A program made the position numbers and the translations under genes. This document shows positions 16,265 to 20,608 of a DNA stretch of 37,154 nt, in pieces (the stretch's first letter is position 1; every line of letters begins with the position of its first letter). The stretch is from Caldifarciminota bacterium (lineage in GTDB: Bacteria > Hydrothermota > Hydrothermia > LBFQ01 > DSFT01). The notes under the pieces are model-generated. The model was not told the DNA's origin and made no database searches. It saw only the letters and a program-made list of their open reading frames with translations. The stretch lies in NCBI GenBank assembly GCA_025060695.1, contig JANXBH010000016.1:1-37154 (forward strand). The letters run 5' to 3'.

Positions 16265-16269
16265 TTATA

Positions 16270-16280
16270 CTTTAAAATTT
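16270..16280 (+). promoter_or_regulatory. Promoter element of the gene at 16285
   Basis: TATACTTTAAAATTT reads toward the ATG at 16285; TAAAAT is at 16273-16278, 6 bases before the start. The divergent minus-strand element is only a few bases away, so the two genes share one promoter region of 34 bases. Confidence 0.5.
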
Positions 16281-16284
16281 CATT

Positions 16285-16866
16285 ATGACGAGTTTAGAGA
16301 TGATGAAAGATATAGTAGAAAATAAGAGGAGCGGTCTTTTGAAGGTAGGAGAATATATATTTTTGTTCAAAGATGGCAAGCTACTTGAAGTTGCAGGGAA
16401 AACTACAAATAAAGAAAAAGCCTTAGAGGACGTTATTCAAAATAATTACGAAAATTCGGAATTTCAGGAAATAGAGGCAACTGTTCTTATTTCTTTTCAA
16501 GAGCCACTTGATATAAGTGATAAGCTTCCAAAGAAAGTAGGAAGAAAAATTTTATTGGATGAAACATTAGTAAAGAAACTACAAGACCTAAGGCTTATAG
16601 TTCCAAGTTTAAATAGTGCAATTGTAGGAAAGTTAGGTGCTGAAGTGGTTGCATACTTTAATATAAGTGAAGATGAATTGGATGGTATCATAGAGAAAGT
16701 AGAGAAAGTATACGAAAAATTTCCCGAAATAAACGATATGATACTAAACACGCAGGATTCATCTATCTATATAAGGATAAAAAATCAAAGCTATATATTT
16801 TGCAAGCTTAGAAGTATAGAAAATATTGGAATTTTAAGGATATACATAAGTAAGGTGTTAGCATGA
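16285..16866 (+). CDS. DUF4388-like plus roadblock-like protein (tentative)
   Basis: A 193-residue protein. The first 60 residues ([24 protein letters not shown]) resemble the PATAN/DUF4388 domain, which is common in signalling and gliding-related proteins. The last 90 residues ([23 protein letters not shown], then a helix, then [30 protein letters not shown]) have the alternation of a roadblock/LC7 domain, which partners small GTPases. Neither match is strong. It is followed with a 4-base overlap by infA. Confidence 0.45.
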
Positions 16867-17084
16867 GTGATAAGAAGGATGTTATAAAGGTTGAAGGAAC
16901 TATAAAAGAAGTTTTGCCAAATGCACTGTTTAGAGTAAAATTAGATAATGGTATGGAAATTTTAGCATATCTCTCAGGTAAAATGCGTATTCATTATGTG
17001 AGAATAGTTCCAGGAGATAGAGTAGTTGTAGAACTTCCAGTTTACGATTTAAGTAAGGGAAGGATAGTTTATAGGTATAAGTAA
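16863..17084 (+). CDS. infA: Translation initiation factor IF-1
   Basis: A 73-residue OB-fold protein: [34 protein letters not shown] then [30 protein letters not shown], full family length. It binds the ribosomal A site with IF-2 and IF-3. Unusually it is not in a ribosomal protein operon here; it follows the DUF4388-like gene with ATGA overlap. A weak AAGGTG precedes the ATG. The stop faces the CARF ORF stop across one base. Confidence 0.95.
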
Positions 17085-17085
17085 T

Positions 17086-17490
17086 TTACTCGCTTTGATA
17101 ATTAGTAACATCAAAAACCTTTATTTCCTTTGTATTAGTGGATATATAACAAAAATATCTATCATACGCAAGGGAAGAGAAACTTCCTGCCGCTGATTGA
17201 ATTTTTTGCCCTCCAGTTATGTCTATTAGTATATCATTTGGTTCGATTTTTTTGTCTAATATTAGTTTTTCATATATTTCTTCAATAACTTCTATATTTT
17301 TTCTTAAGTCTTCAAAGTCTATACCTTCTTCAAATGATATAATTTCTATCTTTTCTCCGTAAAGACTAAATTCTTTTATCTTTCTAAAAAGCGTTTTAAA
17401 GTATTCTATTTGTTCATAGCTTTCTTTAGATGGTATTATATAAACGTACTTTAGACTATCTTTGAATTTGTCAATTATTCTTATCTGCAT
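17086..17490 (-). CDS. CARF-domain protein, C-terminal part of a probable membrane CARF effector
   Basis: The 134-residue ORF has a CARF (Rossmann) look: a first strand YVYIIPSKES, helices, IEIISFEEGIDFEDL, then the signature D90-I-T-G-G-Q-K96 (ILIDITGGQKIQSAAGSF) and YFCYISTNTKEIKVFDV. CARF domains bind cyclic oligoadenylates made by type III CRISPR Cas10. The open frame continues upstream of the ATG through FQGRKIAWEM, which recalls the PW(Q/R)M element joining the membrane part to the CARF domain in membrane-anchored members. It then hits TAA codons. So the ATG is probably internal and the ORF the surviving 3' part of a broken gene. Confidence 0.65.
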   Translation of the reverse strand: MQIRIIDKFKDSLKYVYIIPSKESYEQIEYFKTLFRKIKEFSLYGEKIEIISFEEGIDFEDLRKNIEVIEEIYEKLILDKKIEPNDILIDITGGQKIQSAAGSFSSLAYDRYFCYISTNTKEIKVFDVTNYQSE

Positions 17491-17905
17491 TTCCCAAGCT
17501 ATTTTCCGTCCCTGAAAAATTTCATTTATAGATTTTTGGCATTAATATTACTTAAAAATATTATCAAAGCTTTTGGTTTATATTGATGTCTTTTATTAAT
17601 CTCCATCCCATATAGAAATTTGTAAGTCCAAAAAATATCTTAAGAGCACCATATACGTAATCTTCTTTCATGAGACTAAGACTTTCTTCAATAGATTTTA
17701 AATTTAGTTTTATGTATATTTTTAGAGGTATAAGGCTCTCTGGTAAGTGATTTGTCAGGTTTTCTAAGAATTTTGTTAGATTTATTATCTGATTTGTTAG
17801 TTAGGATAGCAAGGATAAAAAAACAAAGAGGAGTAAAATATTTTCAAGCTTGGATTCTCTTTTTTGTGAGGAGAGATGGATTCTCGTAGTTGTTAGAAAA
17901 ATAAG
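17491..17905 (-). pseudogene. Degraded N-terminal and membrane part of the CARF effector
   Basis: Minus-strand pieces join on to the CARF ORF. From about 17905 an open frame without ATG (VELIFLTTTRIHLSS, then a membrane-like helix KLENILLLFVFLSLLS) stops at TAA 17803-17801. The same frame resumes at 17800 and runs 78 codons to TGA 17566-17564 (LTNQIINLTKFLENL, EDYVYGALKIFFGLTNFYMGW). A frame change and two TAA codons then separate it from FQGRKIAWEM and the CARF domain. The most economical reading is one membrane-CARF gene of roughly 270 codons with two or more stops and one frameshift. Confidence 0.55.
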
Positions 17906-17910
17906 CTCTA

Positions 17911-18129
17911 CTAATATATAATGTAAATTACCGTGGAAGTTATTGGTATTAGAGAAGGAAATATGTAAACTATAAAAATCTTTGAAAATGCAACTGATTC
18001 AATTATTTCTGCAAAACCGTCTGCAAGCCAAGATATAGAAATGAGAATTAAAATAGTGATTAAGAAAGCCAACGGTGTCTTAATTTTACCTATTACCTTA
18101 ATTATACTTAGTAAAGCTTCATTTCCCAT
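17911..18129 (-). CDS. Small two-helix membrane protein
   Basis: This 72-residue ORF begins MGNEALLSIIKVIGKIKTPL and contains two long hydrophobic segments, about residues 20-37 (FLITILILISISWL) and 48-72 (FSKIFIVYIFPSLIPI). Its stop overlaps the likely beginning of the broken CARF-gene frame. A CTTTAAAATTT element lies 20 bases upstream of the ATG. It may be an intact small membrane component of the decayed defence island, or another remnant. I do not recognise a family. Confidence 0.35.
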   Translation of the reverse strand: MGNEALLSIIKVIGKIKTPLAFLITILILISISWLADGFAEIIESVAFSKIFIVYIFPSLIPITSTVIYIIY

Positions 18130-18152: not shown

Positions 18153-18359
18153 TTAAAGTTTTTCTAAAATATTCATTGCTGGAGACATAAAGACTGTTGA
18201 GTATAGTTTTTTAAGCGAAATTATTCCGCTTATAGGTTTTAAAGCTACGAACATAGCTATTGTTAAATTCAATATATAGTATTGCAGTATTTTGGTTAAC
18301 TGATTTGATTAAATAATAAGTTTAGGAACTATCTTTTCAATACCATCCACTGAGCTTAC
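18153..18359 (-). pseudogene. Unrecognised membrane-like gene fragment
   Basis: A minus-strand frame from 18359 (SSVDGIEKIVPKLII) is broken by TAA at 18311-18309. It then continues for 51 codons to TAA 18155-18153, with the hydrophobic stretch YYILNLTIAMFVAL and then SGIISLKKLYSTVFMSPAM. No start codon or Shine-Dalgarno site supports an intact gene. It lies between the HEPN fragment and the small membrane protein and looks like part of the same decayed island. Confidence 0.3.
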
Positions 18360-18365
18360 TACTTA

Positions 18366-19084
18366 TTATTTCCTCTTGGTCTTTCTTGGTATTTCATATT
18401 TACAATTGTGTTCAAAACCCGCATGTGCAAAGAAGTTTCTTTTTTGTAAACTTCCATCATATTTTTCTTTAGTTAATTTGCTATATTTTTTAGGCTTTTC
18501 ATCTATTTCGTTTTTAATCTTCCTAATAACTTCTTACCCTTTAAAAATTTAAATCATCTTTTCTAGTAAAGTTCATACTTCCTAAATATGCTTTTACTAA
18601 GTTTTCAAACTCTACAGTAAGTTTTGCGGTTCTTTTTACTTGAATTTTGTTTGATTTTGTATCAATCTTTATATAATTGTCCTTACATCTTTTTACGATT
18701 TCCTTTATTCTATCCTTCATTTTATCATGACTTAACAAATATTATTCCTTTCTGGAATATCTTCGTTGTCTGGTTCAATTAGCTTTTTTTACTCTGACAA
18801 GCAGTAATGCTTGGAAATGTACTTGAGTGTTCTACTACATGAATGTTTGAAGTTTGAATAGTTTGACTGTATGGTTCTGAGTTTAAAACTTTCAAAGTTA
18901 TATCACCAATCCAATAATTTCTTCAAATTCGAATTCTAACTGATATAAAACAGAGTAATAGAAATCGCTCATCCCCCCTTATCATAACTTTCAAATTCAA
19001 TATTTGTAAATCTGTTTCTGAATTTTTTATTACAGTTTCTTCTATATATGCTCTACTTCTTTTCACTGCTTTGGATTTCCTCAT
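18366..19084 (-). pseudogene. Csx1-like CARF-HEPN ribonuclease, frameshifted remnant
   Basis: Minus-strand fragments line up in the order of a Csx1-family gene. 18923-19084 reads MRKSKAVKRSRAYIEE to LNLKVMIRG. A frame change at a G6 run (18973-18978) leads to SDFYYSVLYQLEFEFEEIIG, and another frame change to ITLKVLNSEPYSQTIQTSNI then VVEHSS, recalling the VYNSEPY block after the CARF core. 18541-18738 (KDRIKEIVKRCKDNY, VKRTAKLTVEFENLVKAY) opens the HEPN domain, and 18366-18533 carries QKRNFFAHAGFEHN. R-N-F-F-A-H is the RxxxxH ribonuclease motif. The 5' end of the CARF domain is missing where the M32 carboxypeptidase promoter now lies. At least three frame breaks make it non-functional. Confidence 0.6.
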
Positions 19085-19090
19085 ACACCT

Positions 19091-19104
19091 ATACTTTAAA
19101 ATTT
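19091..19104 (+). promoter_or_regulatory. Promoter element of the M32 carboxypeptidase gene
   Basis: TATACTTTAAAATT, with TAAAAT at 19097-19102, ends 6 bases before the ATG at 19109. There is no Shine-Dalgarno site between. Confidence 0.5.
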
Positions 19105-19108
19105 CAGA

Positions 19109-20608
19109 ATGAATAACTTAACTCCAAAACAAGCGTATGAAAAATTATATAAAATTTCAAAAAGATTAGCATATTTTTCTTCAGTACTATCAATATTAGG
19201 TTGGGATGAGAGAACTTATATTCCTAAAAGTGGTTATAAGTATAGGTCTGAATTAAATGCAGTTTTAGGTGAATATATTCACGACGAATGGACAAAGGAC
19301 TACATTGGAGAACTTATAGAAATTGCGAAAAATGGTGAACTAAACGAGATAGAAAGGTCAAATCTTTATTGGTGGGAAAGGAGCTACATAAGAAGTAAAA
19401 AAATACCAAAGGAATTACTAATTAATCATATTAAAGTTTCTACAGTAGCATATCAGGTATGGAAGGAGGCAAGAGAAAAAAGTGATTTTGAACTATTTAA
19501 ACCATATTTAAATGAAATAGTAAAAATCTTAAGAGAAAAAGTCCAAATTCTTGGATATAAAAATGAACCATATGATGCACTATTGGATGGATATGAAGCA
19601 GAAATTACAGCTGAAGAAATCTCAAAAGTTTTTGAAGAACTAAAGGGAGAAACTATAAGGCTTTTGGAAAAAGTAAAGGAAAAGGATTTTAAAAGACGTC
19701 TAATTAATGGTCATTTTGAAAAAGAAAAGCAGAAAAGTTTTTGTATTTACTTATTGGAAAAGATAGGTTTTGATTTTTCAATGGGAAGAATAGATGAAAC
19801 TACTCATCCATTTGCAACAAGAATACATCCTGGTGATATAAGAATTACTACAAGGTTTTATGAAGACAATATACTTTCAAGTATTTTTGGGACACTTCAT
19901 GAAATGGGTCATGCATTTTATGAAATGGGATTAAAAGAGGAGTATTTTGGAACTCCTGTTGGAGAGGCAGTTTCTTTGGGTATTCACGAGTCTCAATCAA
20001 GATTTTGGGAAAATATTATAGGAAGAAGTTTGGAATTTTGGGAGTTATTTTATAAGGATTTAAGAAGATATTTTATGCACTTTGAAAATATAAAATTGGA
20101 ACATTTTTATCTTGCTATAAATGAAATAAAACCTTCTTATATAAGAGTAGAGGCAGATGAACTAACCTATAATTTACACATTATACTCAGATTTGAGCTT
20201 GAGAGAGATTTAATAAATGGAAAGCTTAGTATAGATGATGTTAAAGATGCATGGAATGAGAAGTTTGAGAGTCTTTTTGGTTTTAGACCGAGAAACGACA
20301 GTGAGGGAATATTACAAGATGTACATTGGTCATCTGACATGGGATATTTTCCAACTTATACACTTGGAAATTTAAATGCTGCACAATTTTTATATAAAAT
20401 AAATAAAGACTTAGGAAATATATACGAACTTGTAAAAGAAGGTAATTTTAAAACTATATACAATTGGTTGAAGGAAAACATATACGAGAAAGGTTCATTA
20501 TACAAACCTCAGGAACTTTTAGAAAAAGTTACGGGTGAAAGAACAAATCCTAAGTATTTTCTAAAATACATAGAAGATAAAATAGAAAAACTGCTAAGTA
20601 TTGACTAA
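19109..20608 (+). CDS. Carboxypeptidase Taq, M32 metallopeptidase
   Basis: A 499-residue, mostly helical zinc carboxypeptidase. The zinc site HEMGH is at residues 264-268 (GTLHEMGHAFYEMGL), and the third ligand/helper lies in GIHESQSRFWEN (His293-Glu294). HPFATRIHPGDIRITTRF and IRVEADELTYNLHIILRFELE are the other family signatures, and DVHWSSDMGYFPTYTLGN ends the active-site cleft. It removes C-terminal residues of cytosolic peptides; family length is about 500. It is transcribed alone; its stop interleaves with that of the convergent permease gene. Confidence 0.96.
   Translation: MNNLTPKQAYEKLYKISKRLAYFSSVLSILGWDERTYIPKSGYKYRSELNAVLGEYIHDEWTKDYIGELIEIAKNGELNEIERSNLYWWERSYIRSKKIPKELLINHIKVSTVAYQVWKEAREKSDFELFKPYLNEIVKILREKVQILGYKNEPYDALLDGYEAEITAEEISKVFEELKGETIRLLEKVKEKDFKRRLINGHFEKEKQKSFCIYLLEKIGFDFSMGRIDETTHPFATRIHPGDIRITTRFYEDNILSSIFGTLHEMGHAFYEMGLKEEYFGTPVGEAVSLGIHESQSRFWENIIGRSLEFWELFYKDLRRYFMHFENIKLEHFYLAINEIKPSYIRVEADELTYNLHIILRFELERDLINGKLSIDDVKDAWNEKFESLFGFRPRNDSEGILQDVHWSSDMGYFPTYTLGNLNAAQFLYKINKDLGNIYELVKEGNFKTIYNWLKENIYEKGSLYKPQELLEKVTGERTNPKYFLKYIEDKIEKLLSID

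Follow-up and report, generated by a model that had tools for sequence, protein, structure and literature searches.

The DNA analysed here, a stretch of 37,154 nucleotides from a Caldifarciminota bacterium (contig JANXBH010000016.1, referred to below as the window), contains a decayed and half-deleted Csx1 gene on the minus strand at 18352..19087, and we regard its assignment as a csx1 pseudogene as very probable. Csx1 is an RNA-cutting enzyme which is switched on by CRISPR type III systems during infection. The csx1 remnant is followed immediately downstream, on the same strand, by another broken gene, a TM-CARF (Cam1-like) pseudogene at 17089..18129, and we have high confidence that a dead csx1 remnant adjoining a dead TM-CARF remnant is the best explanation of the locus as a whole. 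Together the two remnants look like the decayed effector cassette of a type III CRISPR system.

Four pieces of csx1 are visible on the minus strand, both in the stop-to-stop frames and by direct translation. The first is a CARF fragment at 18919..18978 (GGMSDFYYSVLYQLEFEFEE), which aligns with GQSTDFYFHTFHSLSKFFIE in the intact Csx1 of bacterium SKW172 (JAOABG010000053.1, L071:6458-7825) and with GKMSDYYYWALYNL in that of a related genome (L003). It is followed at 18780..18907 by the end of the CARF domain (starting GDITLKVLNSEPYSQTIQTSNIHVVEH), which is matched by the CARF9 models and contains the NSEPY block, located past the CARF core as the preliminary description had it; the surrounding frame (18779-18922) matches positions 162-198 of the Csx1 model TIGR01897 (E 5e-4). 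The linker and start of the HEPN half (18541..18738, including KIDTKSNKIQVKRTAKLTVEFENLVKAYLG and VKRTAKLTVEFENLVKAYLG) were recovered by frameshift-aware alignment, and this piece alone matches TIGR01897 positions 249-303 with E 0.004. The HEPN fragment at 18366..18533 (including KRNFFAHAGFEHN) retains the RxxxxH motif intact (RNFFAH, in the predicted context RNFFAHAGFE) and matches Pfam Csx1_HEPN with E 5e-9 and 36.9 bits, above the curated cut-off of 23. The PADLOC CARF9/Csx1 models match all three pieces of the remnant which are found by TIGR01897, and these are collinear (model positions 162-198, 249-303 and 353-403), in agreement with the frameshift-aware alignment and with the earlier reading of fragments in three frames which follow the Csx1 plan in the correct linear order. 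There is no single open frame for csx1, and the 110-bit cut-off of TIGR01897 was not reached, the best single piece scoring 28 bits. The N-terminal truncation proposed near 19084 also held up, with Csx1 similarity stopping at 19087 and the DNA shared with a relative of the same genus around the carboxypeptidase gene beginning at 19095. The analysis thus refines the preliminary description in setting the limits at 19087-18352, in adding an internal deletion in the CARF domain, and in recognising the gene as one of two adjoining broken effector genes.

In a whole-genome search the PADLOC TM+CARF model (PDLC01053) matches the neighbouring TM-CARF pseudogene over 17101-18084, with 19 stops inside. 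Its alignments to the TM-CARF proteins of SKW172 and of Candidatus Calescibacterium sp. SKYB25 (L072, JANXBF010000035.1) score 452-470, whereas shuffles reach 90 at most. It has three frame changes relative to its closest relatives, plus in-frame stops and insertions, and both the N-terminal membrane part and the C-terminal CARF are present as remnants. At its start there is a hydrophobic, membrane-helix-like stretch (including LITILILISISWLADGFAEII), and when 16 relatives are aligned, the SWLADG motif shows an invariant Trp and a nearly invariant Asp. The N-terminal TM part with SWLADG and the C-terminal CARF are shared with Cam1 (PDLC01053). In Cam1 a conserved Asp of the membrane helix is required for growth arrest (PMC10808066), and this residue may correspond to the Asp of SWLADG. 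NhCam1 is a protein of 206 residues with a single TM helix, whereas the helical N-terminal part is longer in the SKW172 relative and the copy in the window is broken. The PDB entry that best matches an AlphaFold model of the intact SKW172 TM-CARF protein (mean pLDDT 78) is cA4-bound Cam1 (8t65; E 6e-4).

The C-terminal CARF part of this pseudogene is still open over 151 codons (17089..17541) and contains a DITGGQK motif; the nearest relative is 49% identical over the CARF part. It is the sole part of the locus with a possible residual role, its first strand not being in frame. That it has been kept as a stand-alone CARF, binding or destroying cyclic oligoadenylate, is improbable, even though it has a possible ATG at 17490 and the sequence 17086-17490 matches the PADLOC TM+CARF model with E 2.8e-31: the first CARF strand (ALIIFLS) is encoded in a different frame, the ring nuclease model Crn1 (NF040581), whose cut-off is 125 bits, gives only 17.5, and decay that began more recently in this part would be enough to leave a remainder of this size open. 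We give slightly less credence still to a version in which the open CARF half would be kept and expressed as a soluble cyclic-oligoadenylate binder damping type III signalling, with the toxic membrane and nuclease parts discarded.

Compared with the 455-aa Csx1 of SKW172, the csx1 remnant covers residues 62-455, from 19087 to 18352, and lacks residues 1-61 and several smaller blocks; there are about six frame changes, and the CARF core motif (IDISHGIN in SKW172) is removed by an internal deletion whose size depends on the reference, being about 30-44 residues (~44 versus SKW172). This list is approximate, as the reference is distant and lesions cannot be told fully apart from natural indels. 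The lesions were called on one assembly and with references which are not close, and about 200 of the 455 residues are missing outright versus SKW172. Searches of the window for the Csx1 N-terminus or CARF core gave weak scores in unrelated genes as their best places, and the contigs of the genome contained no Csx1_CARF match, no second csx1 copy and no Csx1_HEPN match other than the HEPN piece described here. With Csx1 (TIGR01897; Pfam Csx1_CARF PF22230 and Csx1_HEPN PF09455) the remnant has in common the HEPN domain with RxxxxH, the NSEPY-type block and the order of the parts, but it differs from a functional gene in having no N-terminus, no CARF core and a broken frame. Since the N-terminus, the ligand-binding core of the CARF domain and the reading frame are gone, the lesions imply loss of function: as judged from its sequence, the remnant should be incapable of yielding a functional enzyme and most likely has no present function.

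The same lesions bear on whether the gene could be intact in the organism and look broken through assembly or sequencing errors. The genome is a 77-contig assembly of 1.5 Mb which is about 95% complete, and so errors could be suspected, but the neighbouring genes are uninterrupted over their length, and many lesions are found in two adjoining genes. We consider errors a quite unlikely cause, because point errors do not delete blocks such as the 61 N-terminal residues and about 44 of the CARF core, which are among the roughly 200 residues lost. It is even harder to credit that a small HEPN RNase is still produced from the HEPN piece: while the RxxxxH motif and its surroundings are conserved, the frame 18533-18366 has 55 codons without ATG, GTG or TTG, and of the 71 positions in the HEPN model it accounts for 14-56 only.

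The csx1 pseudogene was aligned using a custom protein-to-DNA local alignment in which frame changes and long gaps are allowed. Such a frameshift-aware alignment had been suggested as a check in the preliminary description, and it is collinear over residues 62-455 of intact Csx1, outscoring all shuffles and all other places in the window. Against four Csx1 references from related genomes (L003, L004, L009 and L011) the remnant scored 124-141, compared to maxima of 70-85 for dinucleotide-preserving shuffles (n=150) and 43-60 for the reversed proteins. The Csx1 proteins of SKW172 and SKYB25 gave higher scores, being 212 for SKW172 (60 shuffles, mean 62.7, maximum 103.5) and 203 for SKYB25 (shuffle maximum 96.1, n=60). 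When the HEPN piece was omitted, the scores still exceeded the maximum of 150 shuffles for L009 (112.1 vs 70.4), L004 (86.7 vs 71.5) and, barely, L003 (81.6 vs 80.2); only for L011 was the score (69.5) below the shuffle maximum (75.1). When the whole window was tiled on both strands, the best place was 18346-19154 on the minus strand (score 212), and the next unrelated place scored 113.8. A chance resemblance in A+T-rich sequence can practically be dismissed: the sequence is indeed only about 28% G+C and the middle fragments are weak on their own, but none of the 150 shuffles reached the full-length score with any of the four references, the reversed proteins and the whole-window tiling likewise argue against it, and the HEPN piece passes a curated cut-off.

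The remnants are flanked by infA and a carboxypeptidase gene. In another genome of the same genus (G001), the infA block (conserved up to window position 17084) and the carboxypeptidase block (conserved from 19095) are located on different contigs and have other neighbours, and neither csx1 nor TM-CARF was found beside these blocks; the remnants therefore fill the space between two conserved blocks. The infA gene itself (translation initiation factor IF-1, 73 aa, 16863-17084, plus strand), which was too short to appear in the initial ORF list, ends two bases short of the end of the TM-CARF remnant. DNA similarity at 16902-17084 was considered as a possible conserved RNA beside the locus, and corresponds to the infA gene. 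A 23-base stretch (TATACTTTAAAATTTCANNATGA) is present at 16266-16288 and 19090-19112 on the plus strand with 91% identity, spanning the start codons of the two plus-strand genes which flank the remnants; this is perhaps a shared promoter and short leader, and its matches in the window with up to three mismatches are not above chance. A plasmid origin was rejected, with no similar plasmid DNA found. Repeats that might mark the limits of a mobile element were rejected too, as a scan for them gave only short, weak A+T-rich ones.

There are no cas genes in the window beyond the two remnants, which lie neither in nor beside a type III locus. Elsewhere the genome contains type I-B genes with cas4, cas1 and cas2, of which cas4 and cas2 were assigned by sequence and position alone. 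Another contig (C1; L042 10323-12446) has cmr6, cmr5 and a cut cmr4 of a Cmr (III-B) locus at its end. Cas10 was not found in the contigs of this genome, but this says little because the Cmr locus (cmr4-cmr6) runs off its contig, and with that locus cut by the contig end we do not attribute the decay to lost type III immunity.

When genomes carrying both genes are compared, csx1 and TM-CARF are seen to recur together in type III loci. In the hot-spring genomes SKW172 and SKYB25, the type III-A csm locus ends with TM-CARF followed by csx1, both intact and adjacent. Type III-B loci show csx1, cmr6, TM-CARF and cas10 in a row (L073), or csx1 and TM-CARF together (L018), and a genome of the same order as that of the window (G009) has cmr6, csx1 and TM-CARF. 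The two genes do not always come in the same order, csx1 lying upstream in the window and in G009 but downstream of TM-CARF in SKW172 and SKYB25. Most of the 39 TM-CARF loci examined are without a csx1 of this kind in the stretch covered. Csx1 is often located in the same loci as other cA4-activated effectors, including Cam1 (PMC11229360). Two genomes of the same family (G002 and G003) have an intact stand-alone Csx1-like gene (L016 7991-9346 and L017 4503-5837), flanked in both by rlmH-like and ROK-kinase-like genes (named by eye from sequence), and no cas gene was found beside it in the stretch read. A further locus in G002 (contig C135; L044 5178-7073) has two different TM-CARF genes tail to tail, beside a Cmr1-type-RAMP-like gene.

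The ancestral signalling role of the two genes is one that we infer from their families. In living relatives, a Cas10 complex senses foreign RNA and makes cyclic oligoadenylate, the CARF domain of Csx1 binds this molecule and the HEPN dimer then cuts RNA, and the TM-CARF protein binds the same kind of signal and acts on the membrane. The intact Csx1 of SKW172, through which alone the comparison with known structures was made, has the thermococcal Csm6/Csx1 structures 6o6s-6o71 and 4eog as sequence relatives (E 2e-26 to 8e-22). Judged by titles, no precedent for a Csx1 pseudogene was evident among the papers found. The remnant would escape ORF-based annotation, and it can be found by frameshift-aware reading of the raw sequence. 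The csx1 remnant is a commonplace pseudogene from a known family and one half of a decayed effector pair, and it leaves general views unchanged. The csx1 and TM-CARF effectors are thought to use the same second messenger, and the pair forms a small record of CRISPR effector turnover, with the two genes side by side and apart from the Cmr locus of the genome.
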